Of a DNA stretch of 36,405 nt, positions 25,415-30,140 are shown one piece after another; positions within the stretch are counted from its first letter, which is position 1; the number at the start of each line of letters is the position of its first letter. The DNA is from Wenjunlia tyrosinilytica (GTDB lineage Bacteria; Actinomycetota; Actinomycetes; Streptomycetales; Streptomycetaceae), in the NCBI RefSeq assembly GCF_014646055.1, contig NZ_BMMS01000028.1, positions 72,512-108,916 on the forward strand. The letters run 5' to 3'. Made by a program: the position numbers and the translations under genes. The notes under the pieces are model-generated. The model ran no database searches and was not told the DNA's origin. It saw only the letters and a list, made by a program, of their open reading frames with translations.

Positions 25415-26203
25415 TCAGATGAACTTCTGACCGGCCAGGTACTCGGCCAGCTGCTTGCCGCCCTCGCCCTCGTCCTTCACGATCGTGCCCGCGGTGCGCG
25501 CCGGGCGCTCGGTCACACCGTCGACCGCGGTCCAGGAGCCCTCGAGGCCCACGGCGGAGGCGTCCACGCCGAGGTCGGACAGCTCCAGCGCCTCGACCGG
25601 CTTCTTCTTGGCCGCCATGATGCCCTTGAACGACGGGTAGCGGGCCTCACCGGACTGGTCGGTCACGGAGACAACGGCGGGCAGGGACGCCTCGAGCTGC
25701 TCGCTCGCCGCGTCGCCGTCCCGGCGGCCGGTGACCTTGCCGTCCGCGACCGCGACCTCGGACAGCAGCGTGACCTGAGGGGTGCCCAGACGCTCGGCGA
25801 GGATCGCCGGGAGGACACCCATGGTGCCGTCCGTGGAGGCCATGCCGCAGACCACGAGGTCGTAGCCGACGTGCTCGACGGCCTTGGCCAGCACCAGGGA
25901 GGTGCCGAGGACGTCGGTGCCGTGCAGCGCCTCGTCGTTGACGTGGACGGCCTTGTCGGCGCCCATCGAAAGCGCCTTGCGCAGCGCGTCCTTCGCGTCG
26001 TCGCCGCCCATCGTCAGGACGGTGATCTCGGCCTCGCCGCCGTTGGCTTCCTTGATCTGCAGAGCCTGCTCGACCGCGTACTCGTCCAGCTCCGACAGCA
26101 GTCCGTCGACCGCCTCGCGGTCTGTGGTGCGGTCCTCGGCGAAGTGCCGGTCGCCTGTGGCGTCGGGCACGTACTTCACACAGACAACGATCCTCAAGCT
26201 CAC
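25415..26203 (-). CDS. etfB: Electron transfer flavoprotein beta subunit
   Basis: 262-residue AMP-binding subunit that contacts partner dehydrogenases. It starts MSLRIVVCVKYVPDATGD and shows EYAVEQALQIKE, VLTMGGDDAKDALRKALSMG and the loop VCGMASTDGTMGVLPAILAE, all typical of ETF-beta. Start GTG 26203 has AGGAG six nucleotides upstream. A TATGCT box at 26265-26270 (minus strand), 60 bp upstream, is the likely -10, with no clear -35. First gene of the etfBA operon. Confidence 0.97.
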   Translation of the reverse strand: MSLRIVVCVKYVPDATGDRHFAEDRTTDREAVDGLLSELDEYAVEQALQIKEANGGEAEITVLTMGGDDAKDALRKALSMGADKAVHVNDEALHGTDVLGTSLVLAKAVEHVGYDLVVCGMASTDGTMGVLPAILAERLGTPQVTLLSEVAVADGKVTGRRDGDAASEQLEASLPAVVSVTDQSGEARYPSFKGIMAAKKKPVEALELSDLGVDASAVGLEGSWTAVDGVTERPARTAGTIVKDEGEGGKQLAEYLAGQKFI

Positions 26204-26448: not shown

Positions 26449-27174
26449 TCAGTGCCGCAGGGCGTTGAAGCCGCCCTGGTGGTACAGGAGCGGTCGCCCG
26501 GGGCTGGTGGGGTCCAACGCGACCGCCTCCGCGAGGACGAGGCGGTGGTCCCCCGCCGGGATCCTGGCGGCCACCCGGCAGACGAGCCACGCCAGGACAC
26601 CGTCGAGCAGGGGGACTCCATGGGGTCCGGGACGCCAGGAAGTCCCACCGAAGCGGTCGGCGCCCTTGCGGGCGAAGGTCGCGGCGAGCTCCTGCTGGTG
26701 CTCGCCGAGGATGTGCACGCCGACGTACTCGGCGCGGGCGAGCGTGGGCCAGCTCGAGGAGCCGGTACCGGCTCCGAAGGAGAGCAGGGGAGGCTCGGCG
26801 GCGACGGAGCCGACCGAGGTGGCGGTGAAGCCCACCGGCCCCTCGTCGCCCGTCGCGGTGATCACCGCGACGCCGGCGGCGTGCTGGCGGAAGACGGCGC
26901 GGAACAGGTCGGCCGAGGCGGGCGCGGGTGCCTCCCGCGGGCCGGCGGCATCTCGCGCGCCGGTCGCTTCGTGCGGGCCGGTCGCCCGTGGAGCGGCGTC
27001 GTGCGGGCCGGAGGCGCGCGGATCGGAGTCGTGCGGATCGGAGTCGTGCGGATCGGAGTCGCGCGGATCGGAGTCGCGCGGATCGGAGTCGTGCGGATCG
27101 GAGTCGTGCGCGCCGGACGCGCGCGGGTCGGCGTTGCGCAGATCGGCTTCGTGCAGGTCGGCGGAGGCCGTCAT
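26449..27174 (-). CDS. Flavin reductase family protein
   Basis: 241-residue FMN-binding split-barrel protein. The catalytic domain covers about residues 85-240 (contains FRAVFRQHAAGVAVITATG and GFTATSVGSVAAEPPLLSF, the flavin phosphate loop). Family members supply reduced FMN/FAD to two-component monooxygenases, including those that release sulfite from organosulfonates. The first 80 residues are a disordered stretch built from six HDSDP/RDSDP-type repeats encoded by a 15-bp minisatellite, an odd addition to a normally compact enzyme. The start ATG 27174 lies 50 nt after a short leader peptide gene, which suggests regulation by sulfur supply. Confidence 0.88.
   Translation of the reverse strand: MTASADLHEADLRNADPRASGAHDSDPHDSDPRDSDPRDSDPHDSDPHDSDPRASGPHDAAPRATGPHEATGARDAAGPREAPAPASADLFRAVFRQHAAGVAVITATGDEGPVGFTATSVGSVAAEPPLLSFGAGTGSSSWPTLARAEYVGVHILGEHQQELAATFARKGADRFGGTSWRPGPHGVPLLDGVLAWLVCRVAARIPAGDHRLVLAEAVALDPTSPGRPLLYHQGGFNALRH
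27020..27109 (-). repeat. 15-bp minisatellite inside the flavin reductase gene
   Basis: Six tandem copies of a 15-bp unit (plus strand GGATCGGAGTCGTGC; the two middle copies differ at one base) encode D-S-D-P-(H/R) pentapeptides in the N-terminal extension. All six units preserve frame. Confidence 0.95.
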
Positions 27175-27224
27175 GAGTACGGGTGTCCTTCGTGGTCGGC
27201 GGGTCGAGCAGGCTGCGAGGCGTG

Positions 27225-27305
27225 TCAGCCGCTCGAACAGCGGGAACCGGCGTGCCGCACCAGGTCCAGGTGCACTCGGGCGTACAGAAGGGGGCCGTAC
27301 CACAT
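27225..27305 (-). CDS. Short regulatory leader peptide upstream of the flavin reductase
   Basis: 26-codon frame beginning MWYGPLLYARVHLDLVRHAG and ending RCSSG. The core R-V-H-L-D-L-V-R-H-A is shared with the peptide upstream of cysteine dioxygenase in this window (29885-29974), and a cysteine codon lies near the end in both. Short peptides of this look are annotated as putative leader peptides before sulfur-metabolism genes of actinomycetes. A promoter TTGACG (27336-27341) with 18-bp spacer and CACTCT (27312-27317) ends 6 nt before the ATG, so the mRNA is probably leaderless. The flavin reductase starts 50 nt after the stop. Too short for standard gene callers. Confidence 0.75.
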   Translation of the reverse strand: MWYGPLLYARVHLDLVRHAGSRCSSG

Positions 27306-27311
27306 AGCGTC

Positions 27312-27341
27312 AGAGTGACGATTCCGGTCCCGCCCCGTCAA
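27312..27341 (-). promoter_or_regulatory. Promoter of the leader peptide / flavin reductase operon
   Basis: TTGACG at 27336-27341 and CACTCT at 27312-27317 (minus strand) with an 18-bp spacer. The -35 is good, the -10 is moderate. The palindrome CGTCA-N3-TGACG (27308-27320) overlaps the -10 and could bind a regulator. Confidence 0.55.
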
Positions 27342-27367
27342 GACGGCCCCGGGAGATGGGACGAGGA

Positions 27368-27802
27368 TCACCGGTCGTCACCGCCTTCCGCGACGGCCCT
27401 GCCCAGGGCGGCGATCACATCGGCCCTCCTCGGCTGCCCGGACGCCCGGCGCACCAGCGCACCGTCCGCGTCGAGGACGAGCACCGTCGGCGTACGCAGG
27501 ATGGACAGCGCGCGGACCAGTTCCAGACGGGCCTCGGCGTTCACCTCGATATGCGTGACGCCCTCCACCATCGAGGCGACGTCCGCCAGCACCCTGCGGG
27601 TGGCCCGGCACGGCTGGCAGAAGGCACTGGAGAACTGCACCAGGGTGGCCCTCGTCCCCAGCGGCCCGCCGAGCTGCGCGGCCGTCAGCCGCACCCCCGT
27701 ATCGCCCGAACGCACCCGCAGCCTCCCGTCGCGGCGCGCGCGCAGCAGGCCGAAAGCCCCCGCCGACGCGAGCACCGCAAGACACACCATCAGACCGGTC
27801 AT
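27368..27802 (-). CDS. Membrane-anchored thioredoxin-like protein
   Basis: 144-residue protein with one N-terminal membrane segment (about residues 3-21) and a thioredoxin-fold domain. The active site is C62-Q-P-C65 in FSSAFCQPCRATRR, and the cis-proline strand is seen in RTPTVLVLD. It likely acts as a disulfide reductant or exchange protein on the outer face of the membrane. ATG 27802 is chosen for the GAGG five nucleotides upstream; a GTG two codons earlier is the alternative. Divergent from a DUF4395 membrane protein, a common partner of thioredoxin-like genes in streptomycetes. Confidence 0.87.
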   Translation of the reverse strand: MTGLMVCLAVLASAGAFGLLRARRDGRLRVRSGDTGVRLTAAQLGGPLGTRATLVQFSSAFCQPCRATRRVLADVASMVEGVTHIEVNAEARLELVRALSILRTPTVLVLDADGALVRRASGQPRRADVIAALGRAVAEGGDDR

Positions 27803-27877
27803 CCCCACCTCAAGCGTTCACACAGCCTTATTGATTCCCGCGGGTCGCCCCGGCCGCCGGGGGGAACTCAAGCTGCC

Positions 27878-28294
27878 ATGCAAGCCATCGACCCCCGCGG
27901 GGCACGGTTCTCCGCCGCCCTCACCACACTCGTCCTGGCCGCGGTGCTCGTCACCGGCAGCGGCCCGCTCCTCGCCGTGCAGGCGCTCCTCTTCGCGCTC
28001 GGCGCAGCCGGCGGTGTCCGGCGCACGCCGTACGCCTGGCTGTTCCGCGTTCTGGTGCGGCCCCGCATCGGCCCTCCCGCCGTGGCCGAGGACCCCCGGC
28101 CACCCCGCTTCGCGCAGGGCGTCGGCCTGCTCTTCTGCGCGGTGGGACTGGTCGGCTGGTTCGCCGGACCGCCATGGCTGGGCCTGGCGGCGACCGGCTG
28201 CGCACTGGCCGCCGCGTTCCTCAACGCCGCCTTCGGCCTCTGCCTGGGCTGCGAGATGTACCTGCTGGTGCACCGGACCCTGCGCACGACGTGA
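27878..28294 (+). CDS. DUF4395 membrane protein
   Basis: 138-residue integral membrane protein of unknown function. It begins MQAIDPRGARFSAALTTLVL, which fits the DUF4395 entry sequence, and has about four hydrophobic segments. A C122-L-G-C125-E pair near the C-terminus suggests redox chemistry, and it faces a thioredoxin-like gene 75 bp away. The pair may form a membrane thiol relay; this is inference from motif and neighbour only. Confidence 0.82.
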   Translation: MQAIDPRGARFSAALTTLVLAAVLVTGSGPLLAVQALLFALGAAGGVRRTPYAWLFRVLVRPRIGPPAVAEDPRPPRFAQGVGLLFCAVGLVGWFAGPPWLGLAATGCALAAAFLNAAFGLCLGCEMYLLVHRTLRTT

Positions 28295-28419
28295 CGAGTA
28301 TCTCCGCCCGCTCCGGTCCCCGAAGGTGACAGATGGTGCCCGCACGGGGGAACATCTGCCGACAGGCCGAACCTACGGCTGCGTACCTTGTCCCCCGGGG
28401 CCAGGAAAGGTGTTCCCAC

Positions 28420-29136
28420 GTGGCAGAACTCGTCTATCCCCCGGTCATCGGGGTGGCGCACACGATGTTCCGCGCCTTCGATCTCAGGATCGACCTGGCG
28501 GGTTCGGAGAACATCCCCCGCAAGGGCGGGGCGCTGCTGGTGAGCAACCACATCGGCTACCTGGACTTCGTCTTCTGCGGTCTGGCCGCCCGGCCCGCCA
28601 AGCGGCTGGTGCGCTTCATGGCCAAGAAGTCGGTGTTCGACCACAAGATCTCCGGACCCCTCATGCGGGCGATGCACCACATCCCCGTGGACCGGGCGGA
28701 CGGCGTGCATGCCTTCCAGCACGCGCTCAAGGCGCTGCGCTCCGGGGAGATCGTGGGGGTCTTCCCGGAGGCGACGATCAGCCGTTCGTTCACGCTCAAG
28801 CAGTTCAAGACCGGCGCCGCCCGCCTCGCGACGGAGGCGGGCGTGCCACTGCTGCCGATGGCCGTGTGGGGGACGCAGCGGGTGTGGACCAAGGGCCGCC
28901 CGCGCAACTTCTCGCGCAGCCACATCCCGATCTCCATCCGTGTCGGCGAGGCCGTGCACCCCGGCGCGGACGAGAAGCCGGGCAAGCTGACACTGCGCCT
29001 GCGCGACCGGATCGCGGAGTTGCTTGGCGACGCCCAGCGCGACTACCCCGACCGGCCGAAGGGCCCGGAGGACTCGTGGTGGCTGCCCGCCCACATGGGG
29101 GGCACCGCTCCCACTCCGGAAGAAGCCAGGGACTAG
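28420..29136 (+). CDS. 1-acyl-sn-glycerol-3-phosphate acyltransferase (PlsC family)
   Basis: 238-residue membrane-associated acyltransferase that transfers an acyl chain to lysophosphatidic acid or a related acceptor in phospholipid synthesis. The catalytic NHIGYLD (H44 and D49, HX4D) and the acceptor motif FPEAT at 115-119 (usual FPEGT) are visible. GTG 28420 is chosen for AGGAAAGG upstream; the open frame extends further without similarity. TACCTT at 28384-28389 could be its -10. Confidence 0.92.
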   Translation: MAELVYPPVIGVAHTMFRAFDLRIDLAGSENIPRKGGALLVSNHIGYLDFVFCGLAARPAKRLVRFMAKKSVFDHKISGPLMRAMHHIPVDRADGVHAFQHALKALRSGEIVGVFPEATISRSFTLKQFKTGAARLATEAGVPLLPMAVWGTQRVWTKGRPRNFSRSHIPISIRVGEAVHPGADEKPGKLTLRLRDRIAELLGDAQRDYPDRPKGPEDSWWLPAHMGGTAPTPEEARD

Positions 29137-29222
29137 CGGGGACCGGCCACGGCCGGGCACATCCCGGACGGCCGCGACCGCGCCGGCCCCGCGGACCCGC
29201 TCGACGGCGTGCCGACGGCGGG

Positions 29223-29801
29223 TCACCAGTCCTCGGAGCGCTCCACCGCCTTGAGGGTGAGCACATTGCCCTTGCGCCCGTACCGGTGGATCACCGGCAC
29301 CAAGGGGTGGTAGACGTGCACGGAGATCGCGTACTCGGTCTCCGACTCGTTGACGACCTGGTGGACATGCCGGGGGCCGAAGGCGCGCCCCTGGCCGGGT
29401 CCCAGCTCACGGGTGCGGTCCTGGCCCTCCAGCAGCTCCAGCGTCCGCCAGCCCCCGGTGGGCAGCTCCGTGGCGAGGGAGTACTCCGTCAGCCCGCCCA
29501 CGGCGGTGACGAACGCCCCCGAGGAGCCTCCGTGGTCGTGCCAGCCGGTCTCACTGCCGGGCGGCCAGGCCAGCAGCCATGCTTCGCAGCCGCCGGGACC
29601 CTCGAGACGCCGCCAGCTGCGCTCGAACGTCTCGGGCTTGAGACTGGCGATGAGCTCCGCGTCGGCGGCGCTGCGGCGAGCGAAGTCCAGCAGCTCGGCC
29701 AGGGAGGGCAGGTCCGCGCGAGGGCGGGTGCCGGGCCGGGCGGACGTGTGGTCGGGGTTCGGCTGTGCGGGGGCCTGGACGGCCGCGGGCGCCTGGGTCA
29801 T
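29223..29801 (-). CDS. Cysteine dioxygenase (cupin)
   Basis: 192-residue non-haem iron enzyme that oxidises cysteine to cysteine sulfinate. The cupin motif 1 reads GWHDHGGSSGAF (two His iron ligands) and motif 2 GPRHVHQVVN (third His). The first 35 residues are a low-complexity P/A tail. ATG 29801 is taken as start; an in-frame TTG two codons upstream is the alternative, and no ribosome site is clear. A leader peptide gene ends 83 nt upstream, with a strong hairpin in between, suggesting control by cysteine supply. Confidence 0.9.
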   Translation of the reverse strand: MTQAPAAVQAPAQPNPDHTSARPGTRPRADLPSLAELLDFARRSAADAELIASLKPETFERSWRRLEGPGGCEAWLLAWPPGSETGWHDHGGSSGAFVTAVGGLTEYSLATELPTGGWRTLELLEGQDRTRELGPGQGRAFGPRHVHQVVNESETEYAISVHVYHPLVPVIHRYGRKGNVLTLKAVERSEDW

Positions 29802-29831
29802 GGTCAAGGAATGTCACCACCGCTGAGAAGT

Positions 29832-29861
29832 CCCTGCCGGCGCCCTCGGGCGCGGACAGGG
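29832..29861 (-). promoter_or_regulatory. Attenuator-like hairpin before cysteine dioxygenase
   Basis: CCCTG/CAGGG outer arms and a GCGCCC/GGGCGC inner stem form a 30-nt GC-rich hairpin between the leader peptide stop and the cysteine dioxygenase start. It is well placed to halt transcription or translation depending on ribosome progress on the leader. The structure is seen; the mechanism is inferred. Confidence 0.55.
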
Positions 29862-29884
29862 TGGAACGACCGGACTGGGGTGCT

Positions 29885-29974
29885 TCAGCTGCTTGGGCGG
29901 TGACACAGCGCGCTCGCGTGCCGGACCAGGTCCACATGCACGCGCGCGAAAAGCAGCAGCTCGACAGTCGTCAC
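29885..29974 (-). CDS. Short regulatory leader peptide upstream of cysteine dioxygenase
   Basis: 29-codon frame that begins (GTG) VTTVELLLFARV, continues HVDLVRHASALC and ends HRPSS. The motif R-V-H-V-D-L-V-R-H-A-S-A-L-C is the hallmark of the putative leader peptides found before sulfur-assimilation and cysteine genes in actinomycetes. A TACGCT -10 box (29982-29987, minus strand) stops 7 nt before the GTG, so the transcript probably starts at the codon itself. Not reported by usual gene callers because of its size. It is the sister of the peptide at 27225-27305. Confidence 0.85.
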   Translation of the reverse strand: MTTVELLLFARVHVDLVRHASALCHRPSS

Positions 29975-29981
29975 GGGCGAC

Positions 29982-29987
29982 AGCGTA
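29982..29987 (-). promoter_or_regulatory. -10 box of the cysteine dioxygenase leader
   Basis: TACGCT on the minus strand, 7 nt before the leader GTG, fits TANNNT at the spacing of a leaderless start. No convincing -35 is present. Confidence 0.5.
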
Positions 29988-30058
29988 TCCGATGACCGTC
30001 CGCCCGGTCGCGGCGCGGACTGCCCGTCTCACCCAGTGAACGCGTTGGGAACCGCGAA

Positions 30059-30097
30059 ACGCCCCACCGCGGTCCCCCTCGGAACCGGGCGGGGCGT
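30059..30097 (-). terminator. Putative hairpin terminator of the threonine aldolase operon
   Basis: On the minus strand ACGCCCC and GGGGCGT are 7-bp outer arms around a GC-rich 25-nt centre, followed by TTC. It lies about 70 bp after the threonine aldolase stop. Moderate strength. Confidence 0.5.
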
Positions 30098-30140
30098 CTC
30101 GAGCATCCAGCGGGCCTCCCGCTCGGCCTTCCCTTCGGCG

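Follow-up and report, generated by a model that had tools for sequence, protein, structure and literature searches.

A conserved short leader ORF with a fixed UGU cysteine codon precedes a flavin reductase gene in Wenjunlia tyrosinilytica and is a probable cysteine-responsive attenuator

We analyzed a 36,405-nt stretch of the Wenjunlia tyrosinilytica genome (contig NZ_BMMS01000028.1, positions 72,512 to 108,916), here called the window, in which a flavin reductase gene is preceded by a short open reading frame (ORF) with a cysteine codon near its end (Table 1). A sequence-only reading had drawn attention to this 26-codon frame and to a promoter of its own, TTGACG-18-CACTCT, ending 6 nt before the ATG. 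Our reading of the minus strand bore out both, and the promoter is conserved as well, with CACTCT as a weak -10 element. The leader starts 62 nt downstream of the thioredoxin-like gene, its stop codon lies 50 nt before the reductase ATG (27174), and its product fits the pattern R-x-x-V/I/L-D-L-x-R ... Cys within a short ORF. The reductase gene has an N-terminal 15-nt minisatellite (26990-27146; 10.5 copies encoding D-S-D-P-H/R repeats); by eye, orthologous reductases start much closer to the domain than this repeat-bearing frame does.

Table 1. Features around the flavin reductase gene, in window coordinates
Feature	Position	Strand	Remarks
ETF beta subunit gene	25415..26203	-	Downstream of reductase
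Flavin reductase gene	26449..27174	-	PF01613, 130 bits (gathering score 27), E 1e-37; N-terminal repeat region
Shine-Dalgarno GAAGGA of flavin reductase	27186..27191	-	Predicted pairing with leader
Leader-peptide ORF MWYGPLLYARVHLDLVRHAGSRCSSG	27225..27305	-	26 codons; ATG 27305-27303, TGA 27227-27225
UGU cysteine codon, probable sensing codon	27237..27239	-	Cys residue 23, TGT
Anti-Shine-Dalgarno CCUUC	27287..27291	-	Leader codons 5-7; predicted pairing with reductase Shine-Dalgarno
-10 element CACTCT	27312..27317	-	Inside conserved imperfect palindrome 27319-27309
-35 element TTGACG	27336..27341	-	Direct reading and conservation in 70 leader-bearing loci
Thioredoxin-like gene	27368..27808	-	Directly upstream of leader
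Cysteine-dioxygenase-type gene	29223..29807	-	PF05995, E 1.8e-31; start TTG 29807 or ATG just inside
Second leader MTTVELLLFARVHVDLVRHASALCHRPSS	29885..29974	-	GTG start; NF042934 28.7 bits, over cutoff; TGT at conserved Cys

To follow the leader among relatives, we took the best 80 of 416 related reductase loci (79 titled Streptomyces and one titled "Actinobacteria bacterium") and searched the short ORFs directly upstream for R.[HY].D[LVIM].R, with K permitted at the first place. The earlier reading had depended on conservation of the motif in orthologous loci, and it was kept directly upstream of the reductase in 69 of the 80 (70 of 81 counting the window). A looser scan gave 71 of 81 and was set aside for its spurious matches in L061 and L099. 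Five motif-negative loci (L028, L031, L051, L059, and L077) have a small ORF with TGT in which the middle of the motif is altered; its start lies exactly 36 nt downstream of where the -35 element begins. No recognizable leader was present in the other 6 of the 80 (L030, L041, L054, L072, L099, and L102). In two of these, L041 and L099, a short ORF free of Cys codons overlaps the reductase ATG with its TGA by 4 nt (ATGA), and by eye L072 has the same arrangement; it is as if coupling had taken over from attenuation there. The gene neighborhood is stable, with a thioredoxin-like gene upstream in 80/80 orthologous loci and ETF-beta downstream in 73/80, some loci ending before ETF-beta is reached.

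The consensus of the 70 leaders is M-x-x-E-L-L-L-Y-G-R-V/A-H-V-D-L-x-R-x-A-S-A-R-C-P-G. At motif positions 0, 2, 3, 4, 5, and 7, synonymous codons vary while the residues stay (pN/pS 0.029), a value owed partly to selection, since the search pattern itself required five of the six. Residues that the pattern did not demand are conserved too: V or I at position 3 (68/70), A at 9 (69/70), S at 10 (67/70), and C at 13 (70/70). The distance from leader stop to reductase start ranges from 42 to 86 nt, and the frame offset between the two is 2 in 39 loci, 1 in 28, and 0 in 3. This varying offset ruled out that the leader is an N-terminal extension of the reductase.

The promoter is conserved along with the peptide. 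On the minus strand of the window, the -35 element is followed by an 18-nt spacer, the -10 element, and gacgct (27311-27306), after which the ATG begins. Among the 70 leader-bearing loci, each base of CTTGAC at the -35 element is 99 to 100% conserved, and each base of TCGTCA and CTGAC around the -10 element is 93 to 99% conserved. A scan with the sigma-70 consensus did not call this promoter because CACTCT is a poor match to TATAAT. With only 6 nt between the promoter and the ATG, a leaderless transcript is expected, starting at or next to position 27305; the spacing fits such a start, as does the lack of a Shine-Dalgarno (SD)-like site before the leader start (0 of 70 leaders). The -10 element also lies under a palindrome, GTCAG-N-CTGAC, which is perfect in 44 of the 70 loci and present as GTCA..CTGAC in 20 more, and which could be an operator for some regulator. 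The window copy (27309-27319) has one arm changed.

The leader belongs with a family already in NCBIfam, NF042934 ("cis_reg_atten", putative leader peptide), a 19-position motif ending in Cys with a curated cutoff of 27 bits. The window leader scores 21.5 bits (19.8 in the genome search), below the cutoff, whereas 6 of 10 orthologous reductase leaders pass it (27.1 to 33.2 bits) and the other 4 score 22.8 to 26.2. Orthology, and not the score of the window copy itself, therefore makes it a divergent member of the family. Searching the whole W. tyrosinilytica genome with the model gave 21 matches at an E value of ≤10, of which we read 13 (E ≤ 0.03) as leaders. Across the class, 99 of 148 genomes had a match at an E value of ≤1e-4. 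In control genomes, matches appeared in 10 of 14 at an E value of ≤10, none over the cutoff, and in 0 of 14 at ≤1e-4. The genome search scored 150 of 297 first-look candidates and the class search at most 56 per genome; since only part of the candidates was scored, the numbers of leaders are minimum values, and a missing leader beside some other gene carries little weight.

Leaders of this family in the window genome often stand before sulfur genes. Six of the at least 13 precede plain sulfur metabolism genes: a ThiS-type carrier (a cysteine synthase, judged by eye, comes after it), a rhodanese, a nitrite/sulfite reductase, a TauD dioxygenase, a Cys/Met-metabolism pyridoxal phosphate (PLP) enzyme, and the cysteine dioxygenase of the window. 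Four others precede plausible organosulfur genes, namely, a luciferase-like monooxygenase, a flavin mononucleotide (FMN) reductase (accompanied, by eye, by a binding protein), an ABC permease, and the flavin reductase of the window. The last three head genes for a ROK protein, a 2-oxoglutarate-type oxygenase (L016, by eye), and a protein for which Pfam gave no match (L015). The small sulfur regulon proposed earlier thus holds insofar as sulfur genes follow many of the leaders, but with at least 13 leaders in the genome it is not small. The ROK-family gene (L011, contig C16) lies about 750 nt past its leader, and a ROK gene after a leader recurs in L234. L015 (contig C42) precedes a 436-amino-acid frame that looks haloperoxidase-like by eye; its product, scanned in part, had no Pfam match at 1e-5.

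The most constant feature of the leaders is a codon. The conserved cysteine is encoded by TGT in 70/70 reductase leaders, the window included, whereas the reductase bodies have 83 TGC and 0 TGT, and eleven other genes in the window have about 22 TGC and 3 TGT, an approximate tally in which the reading of one gene was off by a base. We extended the comparison to the family by reading 102 copies (30 class-search loci, 12 from the window genome, and 60 hand-picked rows, a choice that favors strong matches). Three of them were set aside because contig ends cut the loci and misplaced the anchor (L122, L144, and L145). L016 stands outside the 102, its match stopping at profile position 16; its Cys codon is also TGT. 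The 99 usable copies represent 55 genomes, 33 genera, and 18 families; 98 of them encode the Cys at profile position 19 with TGT and one with TGC. Other Cys codons in the same leaders, a few of which may precede the true start, are TGT in 25 cases and TGC in 106 (P = 1e-39 by Fisher's test, uncorrected for relatedness). Other two-fold codons in the leaders end in T only about once in five or six (His, 16/82; Asp, 17/102). The UGU is therefore not explained by base composition, by proximity to the stop codon, or by Cys codons in general, and one leader position demands U in its Cys codon. The single copy with TGC at the conserved Cys (L178) is a natural exception.

UGU is decoded by G-U wobble of tRNA-Cys. 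Wobble reading may make UGU the more slowly read of the two Cys codons when charged tRNA runs low. Counting back from the Cys, D (-9) is present in all 99 copies, R in 98 at both -13 and -6, and L (-8) in 97, though the profile that retrieved the copies describes the same motif and so favors strong residues in such counts. A fixed UGU downstream of an invariant D and near-invariant R and L suggests the codon, perhaps together with the nascent chain, as the sensor. We tentatively propose, with somewhat less than even confidence, that a family spread across actinobacteria reads cysteine through a single, fixed, wobble-decoded UGU placed after a nascent-peptide motif, that neighboring UGC cysteines are idle, and that the reductase leaders add an SD lock. 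If so, the leaders would constitute a codon-specific, peptide-assisted ribosome sensor of cysteine supply. The near-invariance of UGU in a family found in 99 of 148 genomes also provides a one-base test, UGU to UGC, of ribosomal cysteine sensing. The fixed UGU leader may further serve as a simple marker when looking for overlooked sulfur genes in actinobacteria, among them producers of useful compounds. For the 99 copies we also tallied the -10 element, which was TAnnnT in 48, nAnnnT in 28, and neither in 23, with starts chosen so as to favor a nearby -10; the tally therefore serves only as an illustration of leaderless starts.

In the reductase leaders a second feature was found at the RNA level. 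The leader CCUUC is complementary to the GAAGG of the reductase SD. Over the 70 sequences, the SD was predicted to pair with the leader's first 30 nt at a mean probability of 0.80 (0.99 in the window), against 0.17 after synonymous recoding with reductase codon usage and 0.32 with synonymous codons shuffled within the leader. The Leu codon in the anti-SD is CTT in 68/70 leaders, a rare codon in the reductase bodies (14 of 1,158 Leu codons). The leader structure, as modeled, would thus be able to mask the reductase ribosome-binding site. In the wider family (87 members, 12 of the 99 being left out because the rule used gave no gene start), SD-leader pairing was 0.42 versus 0.34 after recoding (P = 0.026, a value that, like the other pairing P values, overstates independence because the sequences are related). 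A general SD lock across NF042934 is thus weak at best, and since family-wide pairing barely exceeds the control, we claim the lock for the reductase subfamily only, for which alone the SD mechanism may hold. In folds restricted to the RNA past a ribosome stalled at UGU, the SD was still partly paired (mean, 0.52). The anti-SD lies upstream of that ribosome, so one stalled ribosome may not by itself unmask the SD. No intrinsic terminator was found in 27150-30100, as a classical terminator-type attenuator would have, and the window gave no match to any Rfam element at gathering score, which speaks against a described riboswitch family.

A second, related leader nearby had also been reported, and it was confirmed 2.67 kb away with a score over the NF042934 cutoff. 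The second leader is followed by a cysteine-dioxygenase-type (thiol-dioxygenase-type) gene, not by ssu genes. Leaders before genes of this type were present in 14 of 17 loci (the window among them; 3 loci overlap the family set), with TGT in 14/14. Searching up to 4 kb by tblastn, we found no cysteine-dioxygenase-type gene beside the reductase in any of the 80 orthologous loci. Control of a cysteine dioxygenase by cysteine shortage would be odd, and the enzyme may act on other thiols.

We then considered what the reductase might serve. Solved PF01613 relatives include the reductase parts of two-component monooxygenases, and flavin reductases of the HpaC/DszD type (DszD being, as we assume, a PF01613-type relative) have the same domain as that of the window. 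The window genome has seven PF01613 genes, of which only the one in the window adjoins a leader among the matches listed. No luciferase-like monooxygenase or partner enzyme was found among the window genes scanned around the reductase. In a genome from another actinobacterial family (G047, locus L225), one NF042934 leader with TGT heads a same-strand row of three luciferase-like monooxygenases, a flavin reductase sharing 50% identity with that of the window, an ABC permease, and an ABC ATPase. The second monooxygenase of this row is 63% identical to one under a leader in the window genome (L007), and the permease is 77% identical to the permease under leader L019 there. Parts that stand under one leader in L225 thus each have their own leader in the window genome, the strongest sign that they work together. 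Other arrangements were found in G040 (L234), which belongs to the Streptomyces family and where a leader is followed by a ROK gene, a reductase 48% identical to ours, an NMT1-type binding protein, transporters (by eye), and a luciferase-like monooxygenase, and in G096 (L227), where the reductase comes directly after a luciferase-like monooxygenase. Among ten more distant reductase loci, a leader-like ORF was present in two and not seen in eight within the fetched stretch. The leader-headed monooxygenase row supports the earlier suggestion that the reductase supplies reduced flavin for organosulfur breakdown. An ordinary flavin reductase is thereby placed in a probable ribosome-read sulfur response, with likely partners named.

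We consider it likely, on these comparisons, that a leaderless, cysteine-responsive attenuator of the NF042934 type controls the flavin reductase and that the enzyme works for organosulfur monooxygenases. The leader probably lets the cell turn on the reductase when cysteine is short. Judging from the promoter spacing, RNA polymerase would start at or next to the leader ATG. With cysteine plentiful, ribosomes would complete the 26 codons, the predicted CCUUC-GAAGG pairing would form, and translation of the reductase would stay low. With Cys-tRNA scarce, ribosomes would stall at the UGU near the end and followers would queue behind them; by analogy with mycobacterial cysteine leaders, stalled and queued ribosomes would together block the pairing and switch the reductase on. 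The enzyme would then provide luciferase-like monooxygenases with the reduced flavin they need to release sulfur from organosulfur compounds, as the gene order in relatives suggests. We counted against this proposal the score of the window leader under the family cutoff, the 6/80 orthologous loci that are leader-less, the lack of a leader in 8/10 distant loci, the weak SD-leader pairing over the wider family, the place of the anti-SD upstream of a stalled ribosome with the SD then still partly paired, and the oddness of a cysteine dioxygenase under such control unless other thiols are its substrates.

Other readings of these observations differ in what senses cysteine and in how the signal reaches the reductase. 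The leader product could be an arrest peptide, in which a nascent R-x-H/A-V-D-L-x-R followed by the UGU-encoded Cys stalls the ribosome at or just before the Cys and senses cysteine or a sulfur metabolite via the tunnel instead of by a hungry codon alone. We regard this as a real possibility, if short of probable. A plain hungry-codon sensor needs none of the near-invariance of R, D, L, and R amid synonymous variation, and of the several Cys codons a single one is held to UGU; yet 5 of the 80 loci retain the start and UGU with an altered H-V-D-L stretch, and polycysteine members have retained further Cys codons, which is what counting of codons would call for. Ribosome position might also set premature transcription termination (e.g., Rho dependent) instead of SD masking, as suggested for mycobacterial cys leaders by Seliverstov et al. 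2005 (PMC1262725). The family-wide SD-leader pairing, close to its recoded control, would suit this, but the region 27150-30100 is free of intrinsic terminators, and the reductase subfamily has both a near-fixed anti-SD CTT and pairing far above recoded controls, so that we think termination unlikely for this gene.

The leader could respond to sulfur as proposed while the reductase serves another step, such as thiol redox with thioredoxin or a reaction with ETF. The constant thioredoxin-like gene upstream and the frequent ETF-beta downstream favor such a role, as does the absence of a luciferase-like monooxygenase from the genes scanned around the reductase. We find it rather doubtful nonetheless, given the 50%-identical homolog inside a leader-headed monooxygenase row and the homologs that neighbor luciferase-like monooxygenases in L227 and in L234, the latter with an NMT1-type binding protein as well. 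Very improbable is the reading that the small ORF serves mainly to hand ribosomes on to the reductase through reinitiation or coupling, with no cysteine sensing. Such a function was proposed for actinobacterial leader genes in PMC4833913, and the overlapping Cys-free ORFs of the leader-less L041 and L099 resemble it, but a gap of 42 to 86 nt is long for coupling, and conservation of the UGU and of the motif would go unexplained. Open frames are abundant in high-GC DNA, but we give virtually no credence to a chance ORF or an N-terminal extension, both of which are refuted by the conservation, the pattern of synonymous substitution, and the shifting frame offset.

Attenuation through small cysteine leaders is known in mycobacteria. 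Polycysteine leaders of mycobacteria, reportedly described by Canestrari et al. in 2020, are leaderless short ORFs with Cys near the stop, upstream of sulfur genes, and the polycysteine members from three genomes of one genus in our NF042934 search (L118, L120, and L121) are presumably the same. The window leader differs from that type (NF042936, leader_Ms4527A) in having a single conserved Cys and no run; no NF042936 match was listed for it, and 2 of the 10 reductase leaders matched weakly (18.6 and 14.2 bits against a cutoff of 45), so it does not belong with the polycysteine leaders. A 2026 paper places several cysteine genes of M. smegmatis under translation attenuation. Candidate cys leaders before cys and cbs operons of Mycobacterium, P. 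acnes, and B. longum were described by Seliverstov et al. 2005 (PMC1262725), and these are likewise small ORFs with Cys codons near the stop. The same paper has an LEU element in which a run of Leu codons pairs with the leuA SD, much as the Leu codons of the reductase leader do here; the cases described in its available part include no Streptomyces cys leader and no flavin reductase. For S. lividans, the accessible text of PMC8079986 gives eight leader peptides, none named for cysteine.

Given the mycobacterial attenuation, the 2005 cys leaders, and the NCBI family name, the kind of leader found at the reductase is already known: cysteine attenuation by leaderless small ORFs, the cys leaders, and NF042934 are in the record, and the reductase leader joins them. 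It departs from NF042934 in that the window copy falls below the cutoff and in that reductase leaders add an anti-SD in their Leu codons; the family model itself, being a protein model, is blind to the choice of UGU. Within the open-access literature searched, no paper among the matches listed dealt with the UGU rule, with NF042934, or with Streptomyces cysteine leaders, and the fixed UGU was not found in print there. The families named in the title of Lyubetsky et al. 2014, PF00480 (ROK) and PF14340 (DUF4395), which that title places in sulfur metabolism, have counterparts in our data: the ROK gene after leader L011 and a DUF4395 gene near the reductase (27881-28294).
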